DNA of 64,000 nucleotides from Thermosipho africanus Ob7 (GTDB lineage Bacteria; Thermotogota; Thermotogae; Thermotogales; Fervidobacteriaceae): NCBI RefSeq assembly GCF_003351105.1, contig NZ_NKRG01000006.1, positions 62,001 through 126,000 on the forward strand. The letters run 5' to 3'. Shown here in pieces: positions 12,227-26,330 of this stretch. A program made the position numbers and the translations under genes. Under the pieces are notes generated by a model. That model was not told the origin of the DNA. It saw nothing but the letters and a program-made list of their open reading frames with translations, and searched no databases. Numbering within the stretch: the stretch's first letter is position 1; each line of letters opens with the position of its first letter.

Positions 12227-13636
12227 TCAATCAGCTTTATACAAAGATTCATATTTGTAACCAGTTACTTTTTCGATAATTTCCTTTGTATTTTCGTCTA
12301 CTTCTGTTTTGCCGTTTCTAAAGTCGTTTAATTTATTCATTAGCAGTTTGTGAATCTCAGGTGTGATTTTGTATTTCAATGAAACAATAATTCCAAGGAT
12401 AAGTAAAATTACTGGGAATAGGAAAAATGAAAGTCTAAGCCACAAAAGAGTTGTTTCAGATTGTGTTGTGTTTGGAACGTATCCAATGAGATCTAAGAAA
12501 ACCCCCAACAAAAACAAAGTTACAGCTTGCACAATCTTCCTTATTAATGTCATCATTCCAGAGTATAACCCCGCTCGTTTTTTGGTAGTTATAAGTTCAT
12601 CAATATCCACTATTGTAGGTATCATAGCCCATGGGATCATAACTCCAGCAGAAAGCCCCATTCCAACTATTGCACTATTGATTATTAGTACAACATTTGA
12701 GGTGCTTTTTGGTAGCAAAAAGAGCAAAGTCATACCCAATACCCAAATCGATAAACCAATTTGATAAGCCCTTGCCTTTCCAAATTTATTGGAAATTTTT
12801 ACGTAGAGAGGAAGAGATATAATCTGGAAAATTAATATACTTCCCATACAAATTGAAAATAGATTTTCTTTTCCAAGGTAATAAGTAAGATAGTAAATAA
12901 AGAGTGCCATTAAAATATCCATTGCGGTATATGCAAATATATACATTAACATATGAAGTCTAAACATTTTGTTTTTAAATATTGTAAACAAGTTACCTGA
13001 GGATTCTTTTTTAGATGAAACCTTAACTTTTTCGAATGTTCCTAAGAAGACAAAGATCCATGGAATTGCGTATAAAATTCCGAATGTTATACCCATCTTT
13101 AGAAAACCTTCAGATTTTGTCTTTGCACTATCTATTATCAATTTTGGTAAAACACCTGAAATAAGAGCTGAAATCTGTGAAAACATTATACGCGAACCAG
13201 TTAATTTAGTTCTTATTTTAAAATCTTCCGTCATTTCAGCATTTAGAGCTGTATATGGAACCATAACCAGTGTATAAACGGTTGAAAAGAGGATATATGC
13301 AAATGAATAATATAGGAATAAACTTAATTGTGAACTTCCTGAAAATGGATACCAAAGTAAAAAAAAGCTTAAGAAGATGGGGAAGATCCCAACAAGAAAG
13401 TATACTCTTCTTCTTCCAAATTTAGACTTGGTATTATCTGAAATATACCCCATTAATGGATCTGAAATTGCATCCCAAATCTTACCTATAACTAAAACAA
13501 GACCTGCATAAGATGGTTTTAGACCTACAACATCAGTTAAAAATAACAAAAACAGAGTGCCTATTACTATAAAAGATCCTCCACCGAAAATATCTCCCAT
13601 ACCGTATAGAATAATGTTTTTTGTCTTAACTTTCAT
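12227..13636 (-). CDS. GPH-family sugar:cation symporter
   Basis: A 469-residue protein with about 12 membrane helices. It begins with the GPH (MelB/YicJ/YihO) signature: LYGMGDIFGG, then KIWDAISDPLMGYISDNT and GRRRVY. The E. coli sulfoquinovose genes yihO and yihP encode transporters of this family, so it fits uptake of sulfoquinovose or its glycosides, or release of a sulfonate product. It is the last gene of the operon; its ATG overlaps the stop of the glycosidase gene by four bases. The ribosome site is GGGGGGAG. Confidence 0.82.
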   Translation of the reverse strand: MKVKTKNIILYGMGDIFGGGSFIVIGTLFLLFLTDVVGLKPSYAGLVLVIGKIWDAISDPLMGYISDNTKSKFGRRRVYFLVGIFPIFLSFFLLWYPFSGSSQLSLFLYYSFAYILFSTVYTLVMVPYTALNAEMTEDFKIRTKLTGSRIMFSQISALISGVLPKLIIDSAKTKSEGFLKMGITFGILYAIPWIFVFLGTFEKVKVSSKKESSGNLFTIFKNKMFRLHMLMYIFAYTAMDILMALFIYYLTYYLGKENLFSICMGSILIFQIISLPLYVKISNKFGKARAYQIGLSIWVLGMTLLFLLPKSTSNVVLIINSAIVGMGLSAGVMIPWAMIPTIVDIDELITTKKRAGLYSGMMTLIRKIVQAVTLFLLGVFLDLIGYVPNTTQSETTLLWLRLSFFLFPVILLILGIIVSLKYKITPEIHKLLMNKLNDFRNGKTEVDENTKEIIEKVTGYKYESLYKAD

Positions 13637-15582
13637 ATACTCCCCCCTCCGATATTTTCAAAGAGCTTTGAAAATTTAGAACCTTTTCTATAAAACACAG
13701 GAGGATAACCTAATTTAGACTCAATTTCATATTCTCCCCCGCTGTATGTTTTGCCGCTCCAAAGATGGACCCATTCATCTTCGGGAAGTTTTACTTTCCT
13801 AGTTTTTTTGCCTTTTTTCAAAACAGGTGCAACTAGTAGATCTCTTCCAAAAAGGTACTCATCAAACACATAAAAATTTTTGTACTCAAAAAATACGGGA
13901 TAAATTAATGGCGTGCCCGTCATTTGATATTCTTCTAAATAAAACTTGATATAACTTTTGAGCTTGCTGTGAATCTCAACCATTCTTGAAAGGTGCTTCA
14001 ATATTTCATCAGATGAATCAAATTGAATGTTTGAATCAGGTCTGTTTGTTTCGTGGGTTCTCATAACCGGAGAAAATGCTGAAAGTTCAACCCACCTCAT
14101 GAATAACTCAGGGGTTCTTTTTACGTTGAATAATGATGTATAACCTCCTATATCACAGTGTGTTACGCCTACACCGGAAATTGCAGAAGAAAGGAAAGCA
14201 GTTACTACAGAGGGAATTCCATCATCTTTTGACCAGTTTACTAGTTGATCACCCGCCCACATAAGAGGAATATATTTTTGAAAACCAGTAAAGCCAGATC
14301 TAACAAAGAATAATATTTCGCCTATTTTTCCAGATTCTTTTAATGCTTCATAGTTTAATTTGGACCAAAGAACTGGCCAGAAGTTGTGTATTTTTTTGGG
14401 ATCACCCTGGTATAGGACGCTATCATATGGTAAATACTCTCCAAAGTCTGCCATCCAACCATCAAGACCAAATTCAATTAAATTCTTTATAATCACTTGC
14501 TTGTACCATTCATATGCTTGGGGATTTGTAAGATCAACAATTCCACCGTAAAATTCCCCAAAGTCAATTAAATAAGGCTCCCTCTTCGAGTTTTTTACTA
14601 AGAAGTTGTTTGTTAATGCTTCTTTGTAAAGAGTTCCTTCACTTACCAAATAAGGATTGATGTATCCCAAAAATCTTATTCCATTTTCTTTTAAATATTT
14701 TATCTTTTCATCAAGGTTTGGATACATTTCTTTATTCCATTTCCAGTCCCAAAATAATCTTTTTCCAAAGGATGTTACTTTCTTTCCAACCCAATCTTGA
14801 CACCATACACCACTGACCTTAATACCGTATTTTTTTGCAATTTCTAACTTCTTAAATAAAGTATCAGTTCCACCTTGAATTCCAAGTATTATACCGTCTA
14901 ATGCCCAATCAGGTAAAATTGGCTGTCTACCAACATAACTTGTAAATTTTTCAGTGATATCTTTATAACTTTCTCCATAGAAAAACTTAATCTTTGGAAA
15001 ATCCCAAAATTCAATTTCGATATAATCATTATTAGTAAAATCAAAGTTCATATACGAACTGCCTTCAACAAGAAGGGAATAACCTTTGCTGCTTAGATAA
15101 TAAGGTTGTGGAAAGTTTGTTGTATAGTAATTTCCTCCTGCTTTTCCTGAGATATCAGCAAGCCATGTTACATAGTATTTTTTATTTCTTCCAACACCCG
15201 GTTCTGAGACCCAGATAGGGAATTTTTTCCCTTTTAGATTAACATAAGAAAATTGCTCGCCAAGTCCAAATATCTTTTCATCTTTCGTTGAATTTATCTT
15301 TATCCACAACCTGTTTAAATCTTTCTTTAGAGGTATAAACTCTAGAGTATCAAAATTTTTTACAACCTTTAATAGATCTTCAGAATCATTTCCAAATACG
15401 TACTCATTATTTTGTATTTTTAATTTATTTAAAGGGATTTTTTTTACTTTCTTTTCTTTAATTGAAAAATTACCACGGTACATATTTACATATTCATTTG
15501 CTCTTCCAACGAAAAAGCAAGGATTATTTATAGAATGCTCTATTAATTTTAGATTTTCTATGCTAAATTCAAAATTAGGCAT
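13633..15582 (-). CDS. yihQ: GH31 sulfoquinovosidase (YihQ-type)
   Basis: A cytoplasmic enzyme of 649 residues that would release sulfoquinovose from its alpha-glycosides such as sulfoquinovosyl glycerol. The sequence matches remembered E. coli YihQ well: ILGIQGGTDT, GVWCQDWVGK, TSFGKRLFWDWKWN, GEFYGGIVDLTNP, GWMADFGEYLP and WAGDQ. The nucleophile would be Asp of ADFGEY (about 379) and the acid Asp of GDQ (about 445). The Gln, Arg and Trp that YihQ uses to bind the sulfonate (Q288, R301, W304) occur here at about 262, 275 and 278 with identical spacing. The N-terminal beta-sandwich is present and there is no signal peptide. I chose the ATG at 15582 over GTG 15591 because AGGGGTG is then correctly spaced. 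Ordinary alpha-xylosidases lack this set of residues. Confidence 0.88.
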   Translation of the reverse strand: MPNFEFSIENLKLIEHSINNPCFFVGRANEYVNMYRGNFSIKEKKVKKIPLNKLKIQNNEYVFGNDSEDLLKVVKNFDTLEFIPLKKDLNRLWIKINSTKDEKIFGLGEQFSYVNLKGKKFPIWVSEPGVGRNKKYYVTWLADISGKAGGNYYTTNFPQPYYLSSKGYSLLVEGSSYMNFDFTNNDYIEIEFWDFPKIKFFYGESYKDITEKFTSYVGRQPILPDWALDGIILGIQGGTDTLFKKLEIAKKYGIKVSGVWCQDWVGKKVTSFGKRLFWDWKWNKEMYPNLDEKIKYLKENGIRFLGYINPYLVSEGTLYKEALTNNFLVKNSKREPYLIDFGEFYGGIVDLTNPQAYEWYKQVIIKNLIEFGLDGWMADFGEYLPYDSVLYQGDPKKIHNFWPVLWSKLNYEALKESGKIGEILFFVRSGFTGFQKYIPLMWAGDQLVNWSKDDGIPSVVTAFLSSAISGVGVTHCDIGGYTSLFNVKRTPELFMRWVELSAFSPVMRTHETNRPDSNIQFDSSDEILKHLSRMVEIHSKLKSYIKFYLEEYQMTGTPLIYPVFFEYKNFYVFDEYLFGRDLLVAPVLKKGKKTRKVKLPEDEWVHLWSGKTYSGGEYEIESKLGYPPVFYRKGSKFSKLFENIGGGSI

Positions 15583-15597
15583 TTTGGTCACCCCTAT

Positions 15598-16899
15598 TTA
15601 TCCAAGAAACTGCCAGTTCATTATCTTTGCAAATATTTTATATGTTCTATAATAATCACCGTAAACCATTGCAACATGGTGTGCAATGCCATTTGTAATT
15701 AATCTATCTAATACATCTTTAACAGGCTTTTCAAACTTTACTTTTGCATATGTTCCCTTTAAGAGTTTTTCCATCTCAAAGGCCTTTCCTTTTTCGGCAA
15801 ACACTCTTGTTTTTCCGCGGGCAGAATCTATCCTGAGAATAGTAATTTCACCTTCTTTTAAAACAAAGTCCGCTGTAACACCTTTTCCGCCTGCAAAGTA
15901 AGTGTCTAAACTTCTATTTGATTTCCCATCCCAGAGGTTTGCAGGGGCAACTCCACAATGCCATAACAGGGTTTCATCTTTTTCTAGATCGACCTGCGAA
16001 AGATCTGCAAGAAATGGAGTTTTATTAGATGCAGCTTTTGCTGCAATCATAGAAAGTGTTCCTTCTAAATCACCTTCGCAGCCTGTTATATATCCCTTTG
16101 CTTGTAAATATGACATGGCTGCACAAGGTGATATTCCATAGTCCCCTGCAAATTCTGGCCAGCATCTAATAGCGACACCTGCTAATTTTTTTTCATCCAA
16201 GAATTTTTTTAGGGCATAAGTTAATTTTGATACTTTTTTTAGCTGTTCTTTTGAAATGCTTGAAACTTCGTATACCTTAGAAATTTCTTCTTCATATACT
16301 TTTTCATCTGCATTTTTTGCCAAATCGTATAATTCATTTAACTGATAGTAGTCTACAATGGTACCAGAATTCCCAAAAAGATTTAATTCATCAACACTTA
16401 AATTGAAAAATCCATGTGCCCTATTGCCAAGGATTCCAATTTTTGAATCCGATATAGCCTTTTTCATATTAATCGCTTTTAGCCAATCTTCATCTACTCT
16501 TTCACCTATTACATAGTGAAAGTTGTCTACACCAGATTTATATAGGTTAGAAGCATTTAGGTTCAAACCGCATACCGAATTTAATCTGATTTTGCCTCCA
16601 TCATATGGAAGCTCATTAAATGCCCATAGAAGAATTGGAACCTTGTATTTCTTTTGCAAGGATATTGCAAGATGACCTAGATGAAATGTACCACTAATTA
16701 TTATCAACCCATCAATTTCTTTTATGTTTTCATATACCCTTTCAAGATCTTCTACATCTATTACAAGTTCATCGTATATTTTAAAATCTACATAATCTAT
16801 CTTTTTTAATTCTTCTACCTTTGATTTGAAAATTTCTTCTGCTGCTTTAAAATCGAAAGTTTTACGTGCAAGGCAAACTACGCCAATTTTAGATTTCAT
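15598..16899 (-). CDS. Fucose/arabinose-isomerase-like sugar isomerase, candidate sulfoquinovose isomerase
   Basis: A 433-residue protein of the L-fucose/L-arabinose isomerase fold. It shows GLIIISGTFHLGH, LLWAFNELPYDGG, IRCWPEFAGDYGISPCAAMSY, ITGCEGDLEGTLSM and IAHHVAMVYGDYY. The Glu/Asp in CEGDLEG and the His in AHHVAM fit the metal and substrate site. In known sulfo-TAL and sulfo-TK pathways an enzyme of this family converts sulfoquinovose to sulfofructose, which is the role I infer. It lies directly before the sulfoquinovosidase gene. The substrate cannot be read from sequence alone. Confidence 0.75.
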   Translation of the reverse strand: MKSKIGVVCLARKTFDFKAAEEIFKSKVEELKKIDYVDFKIYDELVIDVEDLERVYENIKEIDGLIIISGTFHLGHLAISLQKKYKVPILLWAFNELPYDGGKIRLNSVCGLNLNASNLYKSGVDNFHYVIGERVDEDWLKAINMKKAISDSKIGILGNRAHGFFNLSVDELNLFGNSGTIVDYYQLNELYDLAKNADEKVYEEEISKVYEVSSISKEQLKKVSKLTYALKKFLDEKKLAGVAIRCWPEFAGDYGISPCAAMSYLQAKGYITGCEGDLEGTLSMIAAKAASNKTPFLADLSQVDLEKDETLLWHCGVAPANLWDGKSNRSLDTYFAGGKGVTADFVLKEGEITILRIDSARGKTRVFAEKGKAFEMEKLLKGTYAKVKFEKPVKDVLDRLITNGIAHHVAMVYGDYYRTYKIFAKIMNWQFLG

Positions 16900-16911
16900 T
16901 TTTTCACTCCC

Positions 16912-17898
16912 TTATGTTGTTTTTCTTTTAACTAACTCCACGTCAAATACATATTCTTTCTTTTTGTGCCTTTTCTTGTTTATCCTCTGATGCAAAATTT
17001 CAAAAGCCTTTTCACCAATTGCAAATTTGTCAACTTTTACTGTTGAAAGACCTACGATGCTTGAAAATACTATATCGTCATATCCAATGACTGCTACATC
17101 TTGCGGAACTTTTATGCCTTCCTCATTAAAGAATTTCAATACCGCAAGTGCAAATATGTCGTTGTAGCAAAAAATACCATCTATTTTTACATTTTTTCTT
17201 TTCCAAAATTGTTTAAATGTTGAAAACGCTTCTTCAAACCCTTCTTTAGAGAATAATGTATTTTCATTTAAGCCATGCTCTAGTATTGCCTTTTTATACC
17301 CCTCACATCTTTTTCTTGTTGCATATTTAAAGCTTGAGCCTGCAAAAAAGAGAATATTTTTCTTTCCACTTTCTATTAAGTGTTTTGTTGCAAGATAGCC
17401 ACCCTTTAAGTCATCTATATATACCTCATCTATATTTAAATCTTCGTTGTGATATTCGACCAATACCGTTGGAAAATTTATCTCTTGAAGAAATTTCAAA
17501 TCTTCGATTTTTGTTTGCATAGCAGTTATTATTAACCCATCTACCCTTCTTTCAAGGAAGGTGCGAATAGCCTTTTCCTCGATTTCGTATTTTCTATCGG
17601 TATTCATAAAAAGGATTTGGTAATCCTTTTTTCTAGCAGCGTATTCAACACCCTTGAGAATGTCTGAATAAAATGGGTTTTGAGTGTCTACTATAACTAC
17701 GCCTATTGTTTTTGTTTTGTTGTATTTTAAAGATGTTGCAGTAATGTTTTTTACATAGTTGAGTTTTTTTGCAACCTGAAGGATTTTTTCTTTTGCTTCT
17801 TTGCTTACATATCCTTTGTTGTTTAACGCTCTTGAGACGGTTATGACAGAATATCCAGATTCTCTTGCAATATCCTTTAAGGTTACAAATCTTTTCAT
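16912..17898 (-). CDS. LacI-family repressor of the operon
   Basis: A 328-residue regulator. The HTH is at the start (TLKDIARESGYSVITVSRAL), followed by the hinge NYVKNITATSLKYNKT and a periplasmic-binding-like ligand domain (TIGVVIVDTQNPFYSDIL, VAVIGYDDIVFS, STVKVDKFAIGEKA). It is inside the operon, between the RpiB-like and isomerase genes. The tandem GATAACGTTATC palindromes before the first gene are typical LacI-family operators and are its likely target, so induction by sulfoquinovose or an intermediate is inferred. The ribosome site is GGAGGG. Confidence 0.85.
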   Translation of the reverse strand: MKRFVTLKDIARESGYSVITVSRALNNKGYVSKEAKEKILQVAKKLNYVKNITATSLKYNKTKTIGVVIVDTQNPFYSDILKGVEYAARKKDYQILFMNTDRKYEIEEKAIRTFLERRVDGLIITAMQTKIEDLKFLQEINFPTVLVEYHNEDLNIDEVYIDDLKGGYLATKHLIESGKKNILFFAGSSFKYATRKRCEGYKKAILEHGLNENTLFSKEGFEEAFSTFKQFWKRKNVKIDGIFCYNDIFALAVLKFFNEEGIKVPQDVAVIGYDDIVFSSIVGLSTVKVDKFAIGEKAFEILHQRINKKRHKKKEYVFDVELVKRKTT

Positions 17899-17907
17899 AT
17901 TTCCCTC

Positions 17908-18390
17908 CTATTTGAAGTTTTTATCTTCTATTTTTCTAATTTCATTTAGTGCATTTTCTAAAAATTGCTTTCTGTTTTCATCAATGAAGTCAAGGCCCTC
18001 TGCAAACTTTGCGTTTAACCAGTTGTCAATTATTTCCTTTGCCTCAAAAGGAGTAATTAGCCATCCTCCCATAGTTAAAACATTAGAATTGTTTATTATT
18101 TTAGACAATTTTGCGGTAAATGGTCCTTCTACAACAGAAGCATACACTCCTTTGAATTTATTTGCAACTATTGCCATTCCCATTCCCGTGCCACAACACA
18201 AAATGCCTCTTTCATATTCCCCTTTAGAGACTTTTTCCGCAACCATAGCTGCAGATACATAATAAGGTCTTACTTCTTCATTTTCGTACATACCAACATC
18301 TTCAACTTCGATACCTTTTTCTAGAAGATATTTTTTTATTTCTTGTTTTAGTGAAAATCCAGATTTATCAGAGCCGATTACAATTTTCAT
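17908..18390 (-). CDS. RpiB/LacA-family isomerase, candidate sulfoerythrose isomerase (SqwI-like)
   Basis: A 160-residue RpiB-fold protein with GSDKSGFSLK at the start and the active Cys in CCGTGMGM (Cys66). Compared with E. coli RpiB, the substrate/phosphate residue His9 is Lys9, the ring-opening His99 is Ile99, and the phosphate-binding Arg near 133 and 137 (GGRHQQR) are replaced by GLDFIDEN. This fits a substrate that carries a sulfonate instead of a phosphate and that needs no ring opening. In the sulfo-TK pathway an RpiB-family enzyme (SqwI, as I recall) converts 4-deoxy-4-sulfoerythrose to the ketose. Neighbouring transketolase genes support this. The gene overlaps the next by four bases. 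Confidence 0.75.
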   Translation of the reverse strand: MKIVIGSDKSGFSLKQEIKKYLLEKGIEVEDVGMYENEEVRPYYVSAAMVAEKVSKGEYERGILCCGTGMGMAIVANKFKGVYASVVEGPFTAKLSKIINNSNVLTMGGWLITPFEAKEIIDNWLNAKFAEGLDFIDENRKQFLENALNEIRKIEDKNFK

Positions 18391-19313
18391 GCCAATCCCT
18401 CCTTGATGCTTTCATATATTGATTGTGAATCAATTTTGAACTTTTTCATTAAATAATCCGCCTTTCCAACAAAACCATAATGATCCCTAATTCCTATTCT
18501 TTTTACAAAAACTGGATAATGTTCTGAAACAACTTCTGCAACAGCACTACCCCAACCGTTTATAATACTGTGATTTTCTACGACAAATATTTTTCCTGTT
18601 TCTTTTGCAGCCTTTACGATGCTTTCCTCGTCAACAGGTTTTAATGTATGCATATTAAGTACTCTAATGCTGTATCCTTCACTTTCAAGCATATCAACAA
18701 CTTTTTTTACTTCGTATAGCATTATTCCAGAAGTAATAATTGTAAAATCTTTTCCGTCTTTTACTTCAAATATTTTTCCAATTTCAAAGTTGTCGTTTTC
18801 ACTGAAAAATACTCTTTTTTCTTTTCTATTTAATCTTAAATATGAAGGACCTTGATATTCGATTATTTGCGGCAGTAATTTTTTTAGTTGTATAAAATCA
18901 ACTGGTTCGATAACAATAAATCTTGGGAGATTCCTCATGATTCCAGCATCTTCAAAGCTCATATGAGTCTGACCGTTTAATTCTGCCATAACGCCAGGAT
19001 CAGATCCAACGACTTTTACAGGAAGATTTGCAAGTCCAACTGAAATTGCAAGTTGATCGTAAGTTCTTCTTGTGGCAAAGGGTGTAAATGAATGCACAAA
19101 TGGAATTTTTCCCATATTAGAAAGTCCTGCGGCAATGCCAACCATATTTGCTTCTGCAACACCTACGTCAATGTACCTATCTGGAAATTTTTCTTTGAAG
19201 ATATCTGTTCTATGTGCTTTCATAAGGTCGGCATCTAGCACCATTATCCTTGGATCTTTTTCCGCTAATTTTACTAATTCTTTGTTGTATAGAATTCTTA
19301 ATTCTTCATTCAT
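18387..19313 (-). CDS. Transketolase, C-terminal subunit (SqwH/SqwG-like)
   Basis: A 308-residue protein covering the pyrimidine-binding and C-terminal domains of transketolase. The catalytic Glu lies in DVGVAEANMVGIAAGL, and FVHSFTPFATRRTYDQ, YLRLNRKEK and VLNMHTLKPVDEESI follow. It pairs with the N-terminal half encoded just upstream, overlapping by eight bases; such split enzymes are common. In this operon it would transfer the top two carbons of sulfofructose, and then of sulfoerythrulose, to glyceraldehyde 3-phosphate, making xylulose 5-phosphate and finally sulfoacetaldehyde. An ordinary transketolase role cannot be excluded from sequence alone. Confidence 0.82.
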   Translation of the reverse strand: MNEELRILYNKELVKLAEKDPRIMVLDADLMKAHRTDIFKEKFPDRYIDVGVAEANMVGIAAGLSNMGKIPFVHSFTPFATRRTYDQLAISVGLANLPVKVVGSDPGVMAELNGQTHMSFEDAGIMRNLPRFIVIEPVDFIQLKKLLPQIIEYQGPSYLRLNRKEKRVFFSENDNFEIGKIFEVKDGKDFTIITSGIMLYEVKKVVDMLESEGYSIRVLNMHTLKPVDEESIVKAAKETGKIFVVENHSIINGWGSAVAEVVSEHYPVFVKRIGIRDHYGFVGKADYLMKKFKIDSQSIYESIKEGLA

Positions 19314-20145
19314 ATTTTTTCACCTCTTCTTCAAGCAATTGATGCGCCTTTTGCCATTCTTCTTTGCTAACCTTCATGTTGTGGCAAGAAAGTTTACCTT
19401 CTGCAAAATAAGCTCCTTTTCCTTTTATTGTGTTGAGTATAATTACAGATGATTGTTCTTTATTTTCCTTTGCCCTTTTTATAGCCTCATAAATTTGATT
19501 TATATCATGACCATCTATCGATTGTGTGTGCCACTTGAATGCCTTAAGTTTCTCTTCAAGGGGTTCTAAATCGTTAAGTTCTTTAATAGGAGCATCTATC
19601 TGCATTTTATTGTAGTCTATAAAGACTATTAAATTGTCCAGTCTTTTGTTTCCACCAAAGAGCAGAGCCTCCCATACCTGGCCTTCTTGTAGTTCTCCAT
19701 CACCCAAAATACAATATACGTTGATATCTTTTTTGTCTAACTTTGCCGCTATGGCCATACCTATTGCTGCGGAAAGTCCTTGACCTAATGATCCGCTTGT
19801 CATATCAACACCAGGAGTTACGAGTCTATCACAATGACTTGGAAGTTTTGTTTCAGGCTGATTTAGTGTATCAAGGTATTCTTCAGGAATGTATCCTATA
19901 TCTGCAAATATTGCATATAGTGCAGGCCCTGCGTGCCCCTTGGATAAAACAAGTCTGTCTCTATCCTCCCAATTTGGGTTTTTTGGGTCTATTTTCATAA
20001 CCTTGTAATAAAGTACTACCAGTGCCTCAACAATTGACATACTACCACCAATGTGTCCAACACCTAAAGTTCCTATTTCCCTTAGTATGTTTTGCCTAAC
20101 TCTTACCGCTTTTTTCTTTAGATAGATTTCTGTAGCTTTGTCCAT
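19306..20145 (-). CDS. Transketolase, N-terminal (thiamine diphosphate) subunit (SqwG/SqwH-like)
   Basis: A 279-residue protein with the thiamine diphosphate fold: GTLGVGHIGGSMS, DRLVLSKGHAGPALYA, MTSGSLGQGLSAAIGMA, and the TPP motif beginning GDGELQEGQVWEA and ending at the Asn of FIDYNKMQ about 28 residues later. The final TIKGKGAYFAEG is also typical. It forms the transketolase with the next gene. Its place between a Fe-type dehydrogenase and an RpiB-like isomerase, in an operon with a YihQ enzyme, is what points to sulfosugar cleavage. Confidence 0.82.
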   Translation of the reverse strand: MDKATEIYLKKKAVRVRQNILREIGTLGVGHIGGSMSIVEALVVLYYKVMKIDPKNPNWEDRDRLVLSKGHAGPALYAIFADIGYIPEEYLDTLNQPETKLPSHCDRLVTPGVDMTSGSLGQGLSAAIGMAIAAKLDKKDINVYCILGDGELQEGQVWEALLFGGNKRLDNLIVFIDYNKMQIDAPIKELNDLEPLEEKLKAFKWHTQSIDGHDINQIYEAIKRAKENKEQSSVIILNTIKGKGAYFAEGKLSCHNMKVSKEEWQKAHQLLEEEVKKYE

Positions 20146-20159
20146 ACAAAGTCCTCCCT

Positions 20160-21203
20160 CTAAAAAATTTTCTTTAGAATTTGCATTAAATTGTCTTCTG
20201 TGAAATTTGCGGGTGTTAATTTTATAATATTGGCCTTAAATGAATCTTCAACAATTTTAGGTAATTCAGTTTCTTTAACACCATAATCTCTAAGTTTTAA
20301 ACTAAATCCACCTTCTGTTATTGCATTATCTATCCATTCTTTTAAATCTTTAACATCAGTTTTTAGAAAATCTAAAAACTCTTCCAGTATAGATTTATTA
20401 TTTTCGTATACAAATTCTATTAAGTGGCTTAAAGTTAATGCACAAGCAATCCCATGCGGGATTCCATACCTATTTGTTAGTGGAAAACTAATTGCGTGTG
20501 CGGCAGTTGTTCGTGTTTGTGAAAATGCAATTCCTGCAATAAGACTTGCTTTTGACATTTCATCTCTTGCTGAGTAGTCGAAGTTGGCTGATTTTAAAAG
20601 ATTTTCTTTTATTATTTTTGCAGCTTTTAAGGAGAGTGCCTGACTGATATCTTGTGTTGATGTTGCCCAATATGATTCTATGGCGTGGGTAAACGCATCA
20701 AGGCCAGTTGAAATAGTAACGTTTTTGGGCATTGAATAAGTAAGTTCAGGATCAACTATGGAAAGGTCAGGCCAAAAGGCATCTGTTACAACAGGCATTT
20801 TTAATCCACTTGAAAAGGTATAAACTCCAACATTTGTAACTTCGCTTCCAGTACCAGATGTTGTAGGGCAAACAATTAATTTTGTTTTCTTTTCTTTAGG
20901 AACCTCATTTTCAATATTTTCAGCAAAGCAACTTACCGCTTTTGCGGTATCGATTGTACTTCCACCGCCTATTGCAACAATAGTTGTTATGTTTTCTTTT
21001 TTAGCAATTGATACCGCTTTTTTAACCTGCTGCGTTGGCGGGTTAGGAATAATTTCGCTAAAGACAACCTTTCCAAAATCGATTTTATCTTTAAGGAAAG
21101 GATCACAGATTACCATGGTGTTTTCATCGATATACTCCTTTAATTTTTTGAACTCTCCTTTTCCATATATTATTTTTACAGGCATAAAGTAACTAAAATT
21201 CAT
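20160..21203 (-). CDS. Iron-type alcohol dehydrogenase, candidate sulfoacetaldehyde reductase (SqwF-like)
   Basis: A 347-residue Fe-ADH family enzyme. The NAD-binding motif GGGSTIDTAKAV, GTGSEVTNVGV, and the metal ligands Asp and His in GLDAFTHAIESYW, His in AAHAISFPL and His in GIPHGIACAL are all present. Fe-ADH enzymes are known to reduce sulfoacetaldehyde to isethionate (for example SarD of Bilophila). In this pathway the same step would regenerate NAD during fermentation. The product, isethionate, would then be exported. Alternative substrates such as sulfolactaldehyde or simple aldehydes remain possible. Confidence 0.72.
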   Translation of the reverse strand: MNFSYFMPVKIIYGKGEFKKLKEYIDENTMVICDPFLKDKIDFGKVVFSEIIPNPPTQQVKKAVSIAKKENITTIVAIGGGSTIDTAKAVSCFAENIENEVPKEKKTKLIVCPTTSGTGSEVTNVGVYTFSSGLKMPVVTDAFWPDLSIVDPELTYSMPKNVTISTGLDAFTHAIESYWATSTQDISQALSLKAAKIIKENLLKSANFDYSARDEMSKASLIAGIAFSQTRTTAAHAISFPLTNRYGIPHGIACALTLSHLIEFVYENNKSILEEFLDFLKTDVKDLKEWIDNAITEGGFSLKLRDYGVKETELPKIVEDSFKANIIKLTPANFTEDNLMQILKKIF

Positions 21204-22057
21204 AAATTTGCCTCCTTTCTTTTTTGTGAAAATATGATAAAGAATACACCAATTAAGATAGCAGCAACACCAAAGACTTGATTGATATTGAGTTTTTCTT
21301 GAAACAAAAACATACTAACTATAATTACGTATATGGGCATAGATAGCAAAAAAGTCCTTATGATCCATATTTGGAATAACTCCATAGCTTTGTAGTAAAC
21401 AATGTAAATAAGAACTTGAAATACACCAGCTATGAATAGTGATAAAAATGATTCGATGTTTACTATCTTTAAAGAAGAACCACTAAATATTGTTAGAGCT
21501 GAAAAAGATACCAAAGCAAACAAATTGTTGTAAAAACCTATAGATAAATTACTTAAATTGTATTTTTCCTTTACATTTTTAATTAAAAACGCATTTAGTG
21601 ATACAAAAAATGCGCTCAAAATGAAGAATAAATCGCCGACATTTACGCTAAAGCTTTTAATATTAAACACAAATGCTATACCGATAAACATCATTAAAGT
21701 TCCAAGCCAATCAAAGATCAAAAATTTGATACCAAGAAATATAGAAATTAGGTTTGTAAAAAAGACATCAGTTCTCAGCAGCAGTACTCCATTTGAGGCA
21801 GTAGAGTATTTTAGACCCAAAAAAGCAAAAAAATCCAATAAAAAGCCTACAATACCAATTAAAATCAGACTAAAGGGAGCATTTTTTATAGAAGATAATT
21901 CTTTTTTTCTTGTAAAAATTAACATAACTGCTAATGCAAATAATCTTACATAAAAGCCTACGACCAATACATCTTGATACGAAGTTGCTATTTTATTTGC
22001 TATGTAATAACTTCCCCAGATGATAGAAAGTAATACTAGAAATAAGTAGTTTTTCAT
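21200..22057 (-). CDS. EamA/DMT-family permease, candidate sulfonate exporter
   Basis: A 285-residue protein with ten predicted membrane helices in two EamA repeats. The first repeat starts LLSIIWGSYYIANKIA; the second ends with FLFQEKLNINQVFGVAAILIG, the usual EamA signature. EamA proteins mostly export metabolites. In the operon it sits right after the ABC permeases and before the reductase, so release of isethionate is the inferred job. Both ends overlap neighbouring genes by four bases. Confidence 0.72.
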   Translation of the reverse strand: MKNYLFLVLLSIIWGSYYIANKIATSYQDVLVVGFYVRLFALAVMLIFTRKKELSSIKNAPFSLILIGIVGFLLDFFAFLGLKYSTASNGVLLLRTDVFFTNLISIFLGIKFLIFDWLGTLMMFIGIAFVFNIKSFSVNVGDLFFILSAFFVSLNAFLIKNVKEKYNLSNLSIGFYNNLFALVSFSALTIFSGSSLKIVNIESFLSLFIAGVFQVLIYIVYYKAMELFQIWIIRTFLLSMPIYVIIVSMFLFQEKLNINQVFGVAAILIGVFFIIFSQKRKEANL

Positions 22058-22872
22058 CCTTTAACTCCACCAGCCATTAAACCTTTTATAATGTATTTTT
22101 GAAGTGTTAAAGTAATGACGAACGCGGGTATTAACATCAAAGTACCTGCTGCAGATAGCTTACCCCACATTGGTGCGTATTGACCAAGATAGGCGTTAAC
22201 TACTAAAGGAGCAGTTTTTGCTCTTATGTTTGTTAATATAAGTGCGTATAAAAATTCATTCCAAGACATTATGAAAGAAAAAACAAATGATACAACAAGT
22301 CCGGGGGATACTAATGGAATGAAGATAACCCAAAAGATTTTCTTTTCACCGCATCCATCAACCTTTGCTGCTTCTTCAAATTCTTTTGGAATAGCTGCAA
22401 AAAATGGAAGAAGGAGCCAGATAACATAAGGAATATTAAAACTTATATGTGCAAGTGTTAAACTAAAAACATTGTCTAGTAAGTTTAAACTTCTAAACAG
22501 CATGTACATAGGAACGGCAAGAGAAATTTGAGGAATCATTCTTGATGTTAAAAATGAGTAAGCGACAAATTTTTTTCCTTTAAATTTGTACCTGGTTATT
22601 CCATATGAAGCCATTGCACCTACTATAACTGAAAATGCAGAGGATATTAAAGCAACAATAAGACTATTTTTAATACCTCTTAAAAAAGTTCTATCTTTTA
22701 AAACGGAAATATAGCTTTTTAAAGTAAAATTTGTGGAAAAAGGAGTAGAAGAAAAAATATCGATATCTCTTTTAAAACTATTTGAGATAACTACCAATAT
22801 TGGAATCATCTCTATTATTACTATCAAGAAAGCTAAAATTATTAATATTACATTTTTTGCTTTTTTATTCAT
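22054..22872 (-). CDS. ABC sugar importer permease, MalG type
   Basis: A 272-residue inner membrane permease with six helices and the EAA loop EEAAKVDGCGEKKIFWVIFIPL. It ends with TLMLIPAFVITL and the typical KYIIKGLMAGGVKG. I chose the ATG at 22872, which overlaps the end of the previous permease gene and follows GGTGAGAG, rather than the TTG at 22890. Its partners are the MalF-type permease and the binding protein. No ATPase gene lies in the operon, so a shared MsmK/UgpC-type ATPase encoded elsewhere must energise it. Confidence 0.85.
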   Translation of the reverse strand: MNKKAKNVILIILAFLIVIIEMIPILVVISNSFKRDIDIFSSTPFSTNFTLKSYISVLKDRTFLRGIKNSLIVALISSAFSVIVGAMASYGITRYKFKGKKFVAYSFLTSRMIPQISLAVPMYMLFRSLNLLDNVFSLTLAHISFNIPYVIWLLLPFFAAIPKEFEEAAKVDGCGEKKIFWVIFIPLVSPGLVVSFVFSFIMSWNEFLYALILTNIRAKTAPLVVNAYLGQYAPMWGKLSAAGTLMLIPAFVITLTLQKYIIKGLMAGGVKG

Positions 22873-23755
22873 AACTCTCACCCAAGTCAAAACTGTTTTT
22901 TATGAGGAATCTTGTAAGTATTAAGGAAGATATAATAAGTATTATTGCCATAGCAGATGCGTATCCAATGTTGAAATATTCAAATGCTTGCTTGTTTATG
23001 TACAAAGAAAGAAGTAATGTTCCATTACCGGGGCCGCCACCTGTCATTACATATACTTCTGAAAAAATTCTTAAAGCATCTATTGTTCTAAGCAATATAG
23101 CCATAACTATAGTTGGTTTAAGATACGGCACTATAACATAATATAGTTTTTCAAAAAAATTTGCGCCGTCTATTATCGCAGCTTCTTCCAGCTCTTTTGG
23201 CATTGTAGAAAGACCTGCATAAAGCAGAATAAACATAAATGGCCACATTCTCCATATATCTTGAATAACAACAGCTGCATAGGCTGAGCCTGGGTATGCT
23301 AGAAATGCCTTTTGCTTTAAACCAATCAAAGAAAGAAAGTAGTTGATAGTTCCATACTCTGGTTGAAGCATAAAACTCCAAGTTAAACCAGATAATATTG
23401 GAAGGATGAACACTGGTAAAAGTAATAGAGACCTTAATATGTTAACACCCTTAAATTGTCTATTCATTAATATTGCAACGAAAAAGCCTATAACAAGTTC
23501 TATAGGAATAGCTATAAATATAAAACCAAACTGTTTTAGTAGAGCGCTCCAAAATATTTTATCTTTGAATAAATTAATGTAGTTTTTCAAAAAGACAAAA
23601 GCTCTATTTTGAGTGCTAACTAGATTCCACTCAAAAAAAGAAAGGCCTGTGGCATAGACAATTGGAAAAATAAGAACAACAAAAGCTGATAAGATGGCTG
23701 GCATTAGGAAAAAGAGGGGAAAGTTACCCCTCTTTTTTTTATTTTTCAACGACAT
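22865..23755 (-). CDS. ABC sugar importer permease, MalF type
   Basis: A 296-residue inner membrane permease with six helices. It has LRSLLLLPVFILPILSGL and the EAA loop EEAAIIDGANFFEKLYYVIVPYL, then VMTGGGPGNGTLLLS as in MalF/UgpA proteins. The start overlaps the end of the binding-protein gene by 17 bases. Codons 6 to 15 also form a strong terminator-like hairpin (23709-23741), which probably lowers permease expression relative to the binding protein. Confidence 0.85.
   Translation of the reverse strand: MSLKNKKKRGNFPLFFLMPAILSAFVVLIFPIVYATGLSFFEWNLVSTQNRAFVFLKNYINLFKDKIFWSALLKQFGFIFIAIPIELVIGFFVAILMNRQFKGVNILRSLLLLPVFILPILSGLTWSFMLQPEYGTINYFLSLIGLKQKAFLAYPGSAYAAVVIQDIWRMWPFMFILLYAGLSTMPKELEEAAIIDGANFFEKLYYVIVPYLKPTIVMAILLRTIDALRIFSEVYVMTGGGPGNGTLLLSLYINKQAFEYFNIGYASAMAIILIISSLILTRFLIKNSFDLGESYE
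23709..23741 (-). terminator. Attenuator-like hairpin inside the permease gene
   Basis: On the minus strand an A run, then AAGAGGGG, loop TAACTTT, CCCCTCTT and three more T. The hairpin begins right after the binding-protein stop at 23739 and lies inside the permease coding frame. It fits a partial terminator or an RNA-stabilising 3' end for the binding-protein message. Confidence 0.65.
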
Positions 23756-24998
23756 TTTTTAATTCCTCCACCATTTTATCTAAGGCTTCATCGATTGACA
23801 TTTGTCCTGTTACACCAGCAAGCCAGTAAGTTCTAATCACATTTGAAACTTCTGGATAATTTTCGATTCTAGGTCTGCTTATAGCATATTTCATAGATTC
23901 GAATATTCCTTCAAACCATGGTCTATCTTTTGCAAGTTCAGGATCTTTTAGTAAATCTACTCTTGCTGGAGTCATTCCTACTTTAACTAATTCTTTTCCA
24001 GCCTTATACGATGACCACCAGTATGCAAATTCTGCAGCTGCTTCTTTGTTTTTAGAAGCTTTTGGAATTCCAAGAACCCAGGCGCCTCTAACTGCTGCTC
24101 TTCTAATATCACCAGATGGTGGAGCTGAATAAATGATATTACCAACAACCATAGACTTATCAGGATTTTCATGATCAGGAATTATTGCTGGCCATTGGAA
24201 CATTGAAAAGACTTTACCTTGGTTAAATGCGGCAATTCTTTCTGAGTGACCATAGTTATTTGCGCCTTCAGGAGCGTACTTTAATAATTCTTTATACATT
24301 TCCATTGCCTTTTTTGCTCTTTCTTTGTTTAGAACAACACGATATTTTCCGGTTTCCTTGTCAAACATAATAGGTGTGGTACCATATGCTTCAAACATCA
24401 TCATAGCTTCACAAGTAGAACCTTCTGTTGATTTTGTAAATGGAGCAAATCCATATATCCCTTTTTTCTTTAAAAATTTTGCCATATCAAGCAGTGCTTC
24501 AAATGTCTGTGGAACCATCATTTCGTATCCATATTCTTTCATAAATTCATCTTTGTACTTTTCTATTATGTCTTTTCTTGTCATCCATACATAGACGTTA
24601 CCATTAATTGGAAGCCCAACAATTACATCTCTTAATACAGCTGCTTTAAACGTTTCTTCCAGAATAACGTTTAAATCTGGTTTTTCATAATACTTTCCTT
24701 TTGGCCATTTGTCATATGGTTCAAGTAATTTACCAATTTGTGGAACGTAAGGTTCATCAACGGCAACTATATCATACTGTGTAGAATTGCTAGATACACC
24801 AACTGCAATTTTTTGAAGGACATTTCCGGAAGGTACTAATTCCATTTCCACTCTAATTCCAGTTGCTTTTTCAAATTCTGGAAGTTTTTCAAGAACGGCT
24901 CTGGTCAATGCATCATCCCAAACTAAAACCCTTATTGTAGGCCCTGCAAAAAGACTTACGACTAATACGAGCAGCGTTAAAAACAACACCTTTTTCAC
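23739..24998 (-). CDS. ABC importer solute-binding protein (family 1), candidate sulfoquinovose binder
   Basis: A 419-residue secreted protein. The signal peptide is MKKVLFLTLLVLVVSLFAGP. The mature part starts TIRVLVWDDALTRAVLEKL and has the family 1 pattern with YDIVAVDEPYVPQIG and ADEVGKEL-like C-terminal helices (GMTPARVDLLKDPELAKDRP). It would capture the sugar outside the cytoplasmic membrane and pass it to the two permeases. First gene of the operon, GTG start with AAGGGGGG ribosome site, behind tandem LacI-type operators. The ligand is inferred only from the operon content. Confidence 0.8.
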   Translation of the reverse strand: MKKVLFLTLLVLVVSLFAGPTIRVLVWDDALTRAVLEKLPEFEKATGIRVEMELVPSGNVLQKIAVGVSSNSTQYDIVAVDEPYVPQIGKLLEPYDKWPKGKYYEKPDLNVILEETFKAAVLRDVIVGLPINGNVYVWMTRKDIIEKYKDEFMKEYGYEMMVPQTFEALLDMAKFLKKKGIYGFAPFTKSTEGSTCEAMMMFEAYGTTPIMFDKETGKYRVVLNKERAKKAMEMYKELLKYAPEGANNYGHSERIAAFNQGKVFSMFQWPAIIPDHENPDKSMVVGNIIYSAPPSGDIRRAAVRGAWVLGIPKASKNKEAAAEFAYWWSSYKAGKELVKVGMTPARVDLLKDPELAKDRPWFEGIFESMKYAISRPRIENYPEVSNVIRTYWLAGVTGQMSIDEALDKMVEELKNVVEK

Positions 24999-25162: not shown

Positions 25163-25193
25163 AAAAAAGAAAGCTCCGGATTGCGGGGCTTTT
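25163..25193 (-). terminator. Terminator of the aldo/keto reductase gene
   Basis: On the minus strand AAAGCCCCG, loop, CGGAGCTTT and then CTTTTTTAT. It begins at the stop codon of the upstream gene and separates it from the sulfoquinovose operon. Confidence 0.75.
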
Positions 25194-26131
25194 CACCAAG
25201 GAAGTGGATTAGGGGCTATTTCATTGTCATATAATTCTTCATACTTTTTCACTTTCTCTATATCCATTTTAATATCGCTTGCTTTTAGATTTTCTTTTAA
25301 TTGTTCAATATTTTTACTGCCAACAGCTATAGTTGAAATTGCATCGTAAGATAGAATAAAACTTAAAGCCTCATGGACCATTGAAACATTTTCACCTTTT
25401 ATTTTTCTTACTTTTTCAACTAACATTGCACGCCTTTCTATATCATTTACACTCCATCTACTTCTTATGCCTGTAAAACGACTGTTTTTGTTGTGCTTTC
25501 CAGTTAACCACCCTGAATCAAGGGGAACTTTTACAATTACTGCATACTCTTTTTCCTTCAACTTATTAAATGATTTTCTTACATCTTGAAAGAAAATATT
25601 AAAAAGAATTTCTACAACTTCGCTATAGGTTCTTTCTATTAACCTATCAACTTCTTTTGAAAAATCGAGAGATGCACCATATGCTTTAATTAGACCTTCG
25701 GATTTCATCTTTTCTAACACTTTAAATTGCTCGCTTTTTTGATCAAGTAATTCTAATGGCGGATTGTGCAATATAACAGAATCAAGATAATCTGTTTTTA
25801 GTTTTTTTAAACTATTTTCTATTGTTTTTTGAATTACATAAGGGTCGAAGCCATTTTCTAACCCTGGTACATGTCCAACTTTTGTGTTAATCACTATTTT
25901 TTCTCTGTTAAAATCTTTTAAGGCTTCGCCTAAAATCATTTCACTTTTTCCTTCTGCATAATTTGGAGCAGTATCAAAAAAATTACAACCTAGTTCAACT
26001 GCGGTATGAACTAAATTTATAGCCTCTTCATATTTTGGGCCATCCCAGTCTTTTTCATTACCAAGTTGCCATGCTCCAAATCCAATTTCAGATACTAATT
26101 TTTCACTTTTTCCATATTTTCTATAATTCAT
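25193..26131 (-). CDS. Aldo/keto reductase
   Basis: A 312-residue NADPH-dependent reductase of the AKR fold. The catalytic set is visible: Asp and Tyr in FFDTAPNYAEG, Lys in VINTKVGH, His in SVILHNPP. The cofactor end is ISTIAVGSKNIEQL. The start at 26131 is chosen for its GGAGATGAT. The gene has its own terminator and a gap before the sulfoquinovose operon, so a role there is possible but not shown. The substrate is unknown; sugar or keto-acid reduction is common in the family. Confidence 0.82.
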   Translation of the reverse strand: MNYRKYGKSEKLVSEIGFGAWQLGNEKDWDGPKYEEAINLVHTAVELGCNFFDTAPNYAEGKSEMILGEALKDFNREKIVINTKVGHVPGLENGFDPYVIQKTIENSLKKLKTDYLDSVILHNPPLELLDQKSEQFKVLEKMKSEGLIKAYGASLDFSKEVDRLIERTYSEVVEILFNIFFQDVRKSFNKLKEKEYAVIVKVPLDSGWLTGKHNKNSRFTGIRSRWSVNDIERRAMLVEKVRKIKGENVSMVHEALSFILSYDAISTIAVGSKNIEQLKENLKASDIKMDIEKVKKYEELYDNEIAPNPLPW

Positions 26132-26330
26132 AATATCATCTCCTTCTGTTTTCTTTTTAAGTTTCTTACAAAATATTATCATATCAACTATATAAATATT
26201 ATTTCTCATATTCTTAGTTATAAACAGTAAGCAAAAGTATTTTTCATTTATTTGTATTTATATTTAAAAAATTGAGTTTCAAAACTTTTTTTTATGTAAA
26301 TAATTACATTGATATAGTTAAATTGTGTTA

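Follow-up and report, generated by a model that had tools for sequence, protein, structure and literature searches.

Genes of the sulfosugar operon

The isomerase gene described here lies on the minus strand of a 64,000-nucleotide stretch of the Thermosipho africanus Ob7 genome (NZ_NKRG01000006.1, positions 62,001 to 126,000), termed the window, to which coordinates refer unless another locus is named. The sulfosugar genes share one strand and are closely packed with several short overlaps:

12227–13636, minus strand: GPH-family sugar symporter (TIGR00792, 253.3 bits, above cut-off)
13633–15591, minus strand: GH31 sulfoquinovosidase of the YihQ type (NF007746, 889.6 bits, cut-off 553)
15598–16899, minus strand: fucose-isomerase-fold sulfoquinovose (SQ) isomerase of the SqvD/SftI type (sole NCBIfam match NF048012, 232.5 bits, cut-off 700)
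16912–17898, minus strand: LacI-family regulator (Pfam, NCBIfam)
17908–18390, minus strand: RpiB-fold isomerase of the SqwI type, predicted 4-deoxy-4-sulfoerythrose isomerase (Pfam, NCBIfam, alignment, tree, model)
18387–19313, minus strand: transketolase C-terminal subunit of the SqwH type (Pfam), overlapping the isomerase gene by 4 bases
19306–20145, minus strand: transketolase N-terminal, thiamine diphosphate subunit of the SqwG type (Pfam; conserved in relatives)
20160–21203, minus strand: iron-containing alcohol dehydrogenase, likely sulfoacetaldehyde reductase of the SqwF type (Pfam Fe-ADH; NCBIfam SarD, 158 bits, cut-off 700)
21200–22057, minus strand: EamA transporter, likely isethionate exporter of the SqwE type (Pfam; conserved position in relatives)
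22054–24998, minus strand: ABC sugar importer (permeases 22054–22890 and 22865–23755; binding protein 23739–24998)

The isomerase reading frame begins with ATG, encodes 160 amino acids and lies where the original prediction had placed it. In the ABC importer, which is conserved in relatives, the binding protein is assigned by Pfam and the permeases by sequence character and position. The GH31 enzyme keeps Gln288, Arg301, Trp304, Asp405, Asp472 and Tyr508 of YihQ, a set that includes its sulfoquinovose-recognition residues, among them Arg301 and Trp304 at the sulfonate site. Six of the seven other Thermotogota GH31 proteins compared (L067, L068, L070, L071, L076 and L078) have glutamine at the Arg301 position, and arginine is found in the window and in L064.

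The isomerase is encoded together with a split transketolase (SqwGH), an SQ isomerase, and homologs of SqwF and SqwE, a content that matches the published step order of the sulfo-transketolase (sulfo-TK) pathway (PMC12890257, PMC9594981). In the accessible text of PMC12890257, the SQ isomerase is followed by SqwGH yielding sulfoerythrose, SqwI converting this to sulfoerythrulose, SqwGH again releasing sulfoacetaldehyde, SqwF forming isethionate and SqwE exporting it; the same text already lists Thermotogae for sulfo-TK. The window isomerase resembles SqwI of Clostridium sp. MSTE9 and Faecalicatena sp. DSM22707 in belonging to PF02502, in its place right behind the split transketolase, and in its association with an SQ isomerase, an iron-containing alcohol dehydrogenase and an exporter. 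It differs in coming from another phylum, in being followed by a LacI gene and in the addition of a GPH symporter to the operon; residues were compared with those SqwI proteins through a Faecalicatena contorta copy (L135). The nearest operon to that at 12227–24998 is found in two genomes of another family (G039/G042, loci L063 and L064), with 72% identity for the isomerase and 66% for the SQ isomerase. The sulfo-TK operons of L063/L064 also contain an aldo-keto reductase; a window gene at 25193–26209, upstream of the importer, encodes an aldo-keto reductase with 80% identity to it, which may be part of sulfosugar use.

Fold and active site of the isomerase

The protein matches Pfam LacAB_rpiB (PF02502) with 149.8 bits against a cut-off of 24.7 and clears the NCBIfam cut-off for the RpiB/LacA/LacB subfamily. 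It falls below the narrower models, with 123.6 bits for the rpiB equivalog TIGR01120 (cut-off 138.65), 102.7 bits for the EryI model NF051858 (cut-off 240), and 73.8 and 65.5 bits for lacB and lacA (cut-offs 312.55 and 181.1), and it is encoded by a single gene and not by a LacAB pair. No sulfoerythrose-isomerase model occurs among its Pfam and NCBIfam matches. Among the 25 PDB sequences matched, the nearest, scoring about 100 bits, belong to ordinary RpiBs, and none is named as a sulfoerythrose isomerase. The AlphaFold2 model of the monomer, built from a 48-sequence alignment, has a mean pLDDT of 95.7 for a fold whose active site in RpiB lies between two subunits, and its top Foldseek match is the Clostridium thermocellum RpiB 3he8 (TM 0.87 by query, 0.94 by target). 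The RpiB fold proposed from the first inspection of the sequence is upheld by these profile matches and by the predicted structure, and the catalytic Cys66 is present within it.

Residue equivalences were taken from E. coli K-12 RpiB (from NC_000913). E. coli Asp9, Cys66, Thr68 and Asn100 correspond to Asp8, Cys66, Thr68 and Asn100 of the window protein, so that with Gly71 the catalytic core is kept. His10 corresponds to Lys9, His99 to Ile99, Arg110 to Trp110, Arg133 to Leu133 and Arg137 to Arg140, and His134 faces Asp137, a residue other than histidine at the edge of an insertion. This insertion of three residues near the C terminus (GLDFIDENR, compared with, for example, GFPEDR in relatives) displaces the last arginine. 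At the position four residues past that of Arg133, the 11 nearest relatives compared have, ungapped, arginine in 10 cases and lysine in one, and this conservation of the E. coli spacing indicates that the second C-terminal arginine is retained as Arg140 behind the insertion; its loss is ruled out.

According to published work, E. coli His99 (His102 of the M. tuberculosis enzyme) serves furanose ring opening and M. tuberculosis Arg113 binds phosphate (PMC3755991), and the phosphate anchors are given as His10/His11, Arg137 and Arg141, the arginines in Leishmania numbering, with Cys69 as the base (PMC4783025). Arg113 is equated with E. coli Arg110 from the offset of three between His99 and His102. 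Five of the six phosphate and ring side chains (His10, His99, Arg110, Arg133 and His134) are replaced in the window protein. Of the set His10, His99, Arg110, Arg133 and Arg137 that characterizes RpiB, it keeps the last alone, as Arg140.

The original prediction was right in that Cys66 is kept and that isoleucine takes the place of His99. Its Lys9 is also correct, although the E. coli residue replaced is His10 and not His9. It had further described two C-terminal arginines as lost, which applies to the first (Leu133) and not to the second. Loss of the phosphate-handling residues is accordingly too strong a description, because Arg137 is kept and a lysine replaces His10, even though five of the six residues are changed. 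Replacement of Arg110, the third phosphate arginine, by Trp110 had not been mentioned.

The solved RpiB structures from E. coli (1nn4/2vvr), C. thermocellum (3he8) and T. maritima (1o1x) have in common with the window protein the fold, the Cys66 base, Asp9, Thr68, Gly71, Asn100 and Arg137, and differ from it at His10, His99, Arg110, Arg133 and His134, with 38–41% identity in structural alignments. The galactose-6-phosphate isomerase LacAB has the same fold, with the cysteine in LacB. Unlike the window protein it is a heteromer, which in the accessible text of PMC3755991 grips phosphate with three arginines and one histidine and uses His96 for ring opening. An RpiB-like fold acting on a phosphate-free substrate is represented by 4u8f, which differs in its length of about 213 residues, its 24% identity and its uronate substrate.

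The EryI-type proteins separate two of the changes. Rhizobium leguminosarum L164, from an apparent erythritol region, has serine at positions 10 and 99 and keeps Arg110 and Arg133, and its close relative in the PDB, Brucella 5ifz, has the same letters at those positions. We take L164 to be an EryI-type D-erythrose-4-phosphate isomerase, with an acyclic tetrose phosphate as its substrate. Like the window protein, EryI-type enzymes have lost His99 and His10; unlike it, they keep Arg110 and Arg133, lose Arg137 and lack Trp110. Retention of both arginines without His99 suggests that loss of His99 fits a substrate with no ring to open, as the original prediction had reasoned, and that loss of Arg110 and Arg133 fits the absence of phosphate. 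Other members of the family show that positions 110 and 133 also vary elsewhere, with Arg110 kept and proline at 133 in Rhizobium L163, and with glutamine at 110, glutamate at 133 and His99 kept in homologs from Mesobacillus and Sinorhizobium. Trp110 occurs in none of the nine comparison proteins and, judged from these alignments, the SqwI clade is the only one of the families compared to show the joint change of Arg110 and Arg133 to tryptophan and leucine or phenylalanine. A further EryI-like RpiB homolog (Asp, Ser, Arg, Arg) is encoded on a Klebsiella variicola plasmid (L168:3998–4477) beside genes of the transaldolase, transketolase, triose-phosphate-isomerase and dihydroxyacetone-kinase families, a region that looks like a tetrose-phosphate pathway.

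Conservation of the residue pattern and gene neighborhood

RpiB-family genes are present in 100 of 103 Thermotogota genomes. Proteins of the window type occur in 13 of the 103, scoring 188–346 bits and, with the window itself set aside, sharing 57–72% identity with the window protein over nearly all 160 residues; all other RpiB-family matches score at most 115 bits. Of the 100 other loci, 98 supplied the ordinary RpiBs; the remaining two, C21 and C49, are fragments from genome G022 and were left out. At E. coli positions 9, 10, 66, 99, 100, 110, 133, 134 and 137 the residues are DHCHNRRHR in 96 of these 98 proteins; one exception has aspartate at 99 and the other is cut by a contig end. Each of the 13 SqwI-type proteins has lysine at 10, isoleucine or valine at 99, tryptophan at 110, phenylalanine or leucine at 133, and arginine or lysine at 137.

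A search of GTDB species genomes gave 431 relatives, of which the best 80 were also compared, a non-random sample picked as top matches to the clade. Among these 80, isoleucine or valine at 99 is invariant, Trp110 is found in 75, lysine at 10 in 64, and Arg137 in 65 with lysine in seven more; arginine at 133 occurs in none of the 79 readable sequences, and Cys66 and Asn100 are present in all 80. Over the 13 Thermotogota proteins and the best 80 relatives together, Cys66, Thr68, Gly71 and Asn100 are conserved throughout the 93 sequences and Asp9 in 92 of them; at most 92 of the sequences are distinct, since L092 and L071 are identical. A maximum likelihood tree of 120 rows (midpoint root, bootstrap not fully settled), from which L063 was omitted because it nearly duplicates L064, groups the window type with all 80 relatives in a single clade (support 100/100, branch length 1.02) that is set apart from ordinary RpiBs, EryI-type proteins and LacAB. 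The clade and its residue pattern are shared with copies from published sulfo-TK lineages (Faecalicatena, Clostridia and Spirochaetes); the F. contorta copy, 49% identical, has the same K-I-W-L-R pattern as the window protein. With the replaced positions fixed or nearly so in one cross-phylum clade and the canonical states fixed in ordinary RpiBs, the replacements mark a clade and are far beyond chance.

The gene neighborhood is conserved to a similar extent. A YihQ-type GH31 gene lies beside the SqwI-type gene in all 13 Thermotogota genomes and a split transketolase in 11, the contigs of the other two ending before that position; SqwH-type partners with 58–72% identity adjoin it in 10 genomes besides the window. 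Five SQ clusters of the phylum that have no transketolase (L076–L080) also lack an RpiB-family gene, and in L076, the cluster scanned with NCBIfam, the place of the transketolase is taken by an aldehyde dehydrogenase and two other enzymes. Taken with the 13 genomes, these clusters indicate that the isomerase goes with transketolase and not merely with sulfoquinovose.

The neighbors of the best 80 relatives were scanned by tblastn, as a longest-ORF scan overlooks genes where contigs are rich in GC; as a context marker, a ROK-family regulator (X412) proved unspecific and was dropped. Linkage to a transketolase homolog (36% identity or more) was seen for 69 of the 80, a set from which L088 (a 26% match) was dropped and to which Massiliimalia L156 was added. 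L156 had been a candidate sulfosugar-free case, which its split transketolase upstream, within about 13 kb, rules out. Across the 69 linked relatives Trp110, isoleucine or valine at 99 and a hydrophobic residue at 133 are each invariant. Lys9 is found in 60, the remainder having leucine (four, in Spirochaetes), glycine (three) or arginine (two), and because it is missing from the Spirochaete and some Lachnospiraceae copies Lys9 is ruled out as a strict marker.

The 11 relatives with no transketolase link include several on short contigs. No sulfosugar genes were seen near L108, L117, L130, L155 and L162 (tblastn only for L117, L130 and L162), and these isomerases may act on something else. Three Hydrogenedentes copies (L108, L117 and L130) and one from Armatimonadota (L162) have proline or asparagine in place of Lys9 and leucine or phenylalanine in place of Trp110, with no transketolase nearby, and possibly use another non-phosphate substrate. 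Two copies from Clostridia MAGs, L132 (on a short contig) and L155 (adjoining an α-L-fucosidase-family gene), have the K, I, W, V, R pattern with no sulfosugar or transketolase genes visible, and the pattern may therefore extend beyond sulfosugar isomerases.

Within the family of the window, genus g2 (L068:10302–11753, L070, L072, L073, L074 and L075) has a sulfo-TK operon with an SQ isomerase only 25–27% identical to that of the window. These distant fucose-isomerase homologs are ruled out as a sign of another pathway, because the operon is otherwise unchanged and the L068 protein, the one examined, matches no model but that for sulfoquinovose isomerase (125.6 bits); within this operon one SQ isomerase seems to have been swapped for another. 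No SqwI-type isomerase was found in the three other species of the window's genus that were searched (G078–G080). The distribution of the operon suggests horizontal transfer or repeated loss. The window genome itself also encodes an ordinary RpiB (L001) with all canonical residues and an ordinary full-length transketolase, which would leave the SqwI-type copy free for a special task.

Predicted function and the sulfonate pocket

The gene very probably encodes SqwI, the predicted 4-deoxy-4-sulfoerythrose isomerase of a sulfo-TK operon for sulfoquinovose. As a sequence-based assignment this is well supported by the fold, the catalytic core, the replaced pocket residues, the clade-wide conservation and the operon context, and the pathway reading of the original prediction is likewise well supported by operon content, co-occurrence and the clade-wide residue pattern. 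The sulfonate end that it had also proposed for the substrate is suggested by the operon; the residues themselves do not show a sulfonate. Direct assay of SqwI is reported to be hampered by spontaneous isomerization of sulfoerythrose (PMC9594981), and Faecalicatena is reported to express on SQ an orthologous gene that has 58% identity to the MSTE9 archetype (PMC11659671).

Among other explanations, the one with the most remaining weight, itself slight, is that the clade is a wider group acting on acyclic or non-phosphorylated sugars, with sulfosugars as just one of several applications, and that the pattern signifies the absence of phosphate, not the presence of sulfonate. This bears more on the pocket model described below than on the SqwI assignment of the window gene. 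The five relatives with no visible transketolase or sulfosugar genes, and the phosphate-free uronate substrate of 4u8f, are consistent with it. It is opposed by the presence of Trp110 in every transketolase-linked relative, by the divergence of the unlinked Hydrogenedentes and Armatimonadota copies at Lys9, Trp110 and Arg137 in a subclade of their own, and by the split transketolase of L156, at first counted as unlinked.

It is highly improbable that the protein is an ordinary ribose-5-phosphate isomerase B processing xylulose 5-phosphate from transketolase. The fold and Cys66 would suit such an enzyme and the operon itself makes sugar phosphates, but the 13 Thermotogota copies without exception differ at five of the six phosphate and ring positions, all six of which are kept in 96 of 98 ordinary RpiBs, the genome already has an RpiB, and the score lies under the rpiB equivalog cut-off. 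A decayed, inactive copy beside a substrate that isomerizes unaided is just as improbable; the residue losses and the spontaneous reaction reported in the accessible text of PMC9594981 speak for decay, against which stand the near-invariant catalytic core of the SqwI-type set, an intact frame overlapping the transketolase gene and maintenance across phyla. Least probable of all is a tetrose-phosphate isomerase interconverting erythrose 4-phosphate and erythrulose 4-phosphate, which would account for the loss of His99 and His10 as in the Rhizobium EryI-type protein but not for tryptophan and leucine or phenylalanine where EryI keeps Arg110 and Arg133, for an operon with no erythritol genes, or for the position of EryI-type enzymes outside the 100/100 clade.

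For SqwI, the first transketolase step on sulfofructose would leave 4-deoxy-4-sulfoerythrose, which the isomerase is predicted to interconvert with 4-deoxy-4-sulfoerythrulose, the donor of the second transketolase step. Thr68, Asp8 and Asn100 would hold the polyol end of the substrate, while Cys66, as in RpiB, would take the C2 proton and return it to C1 via a cis-enediol(ate). Since C4 would carry the sulfonate no furanose could form, and His99 would be unneeded, hence isoleucine or valine. The sulfonate would sit on a shorter chain, and the arginines that enclose phosphate (Arg110 and Arg133) may accordingly have given way to Trp110 and Leu/Phe133, while Arg140 (E. coli Arg137) and usually Lys9 could provide the counter-charge. 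The product would re-enter the two-subunit transketolase to give sulfoacetaldehyde, which the iron-containing alcohol dehydrogenase would reduce to isethionate for export.

By analogy with other sulfosugar enzymes, a more tentative proposal, which we hold to be possible but somewhat unlikely, is that a sulfonate pocket arose from the phosphate pocket through the change of Arg110 to Trp110, with Arg140 retained and usually Lys9, and that it represents a Trp-plus-Arg grip reached convergently in unrelated folds. The Trp-near-Arg pair of YihQ (Arg301 and Trp304) is kept in the GH31 protein of the window operon. In PMC11659671, the SF-transaldolase is described with a sulfonate-orienting Trp138, a position occupied by arginine in a paralog for which fructose 6-phosphate is a possible substrate. 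This parallel supports the Trp110 proposal; altered head-group residues of SqwGH are linked to sulfonate acceptance in the same paper. The phosphate residues of transketolase are uninformative as an internal control, because the organism's ordinary transketolase itself deviates from TktA, at Ser385 and His461 in the alignment.

The sulfo-TK pathway and its occurrence in Thermotogae are already known, as is the family to which SqwI belongs. The corrected residue list and the clade-wide signature, of which Trp110 is the sharpest marker, are a modest extension; no analysis of SqwI active-site residues was found in the accessible parts of the sulfosugar literature searched, a body that did not extend to the original 2021 and 2023 papers. 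The pattern of the SqwI clade, absent from ordinary RpiBs, gives specific residues for testing a step that is hard to measure, for which the Thermotogota protein could suit crystallization, and serves as a marker against annotating SqwI genes as ribose-5-phosphate isomerase. If the Trp110 sulfonate pocket is real, a single residue would distinguish sulfosugar from sugar-phosphate isomerases in genomes. The comparison of RpiB, EryI and SqwI separates ring opening from head-group binding within one fold.
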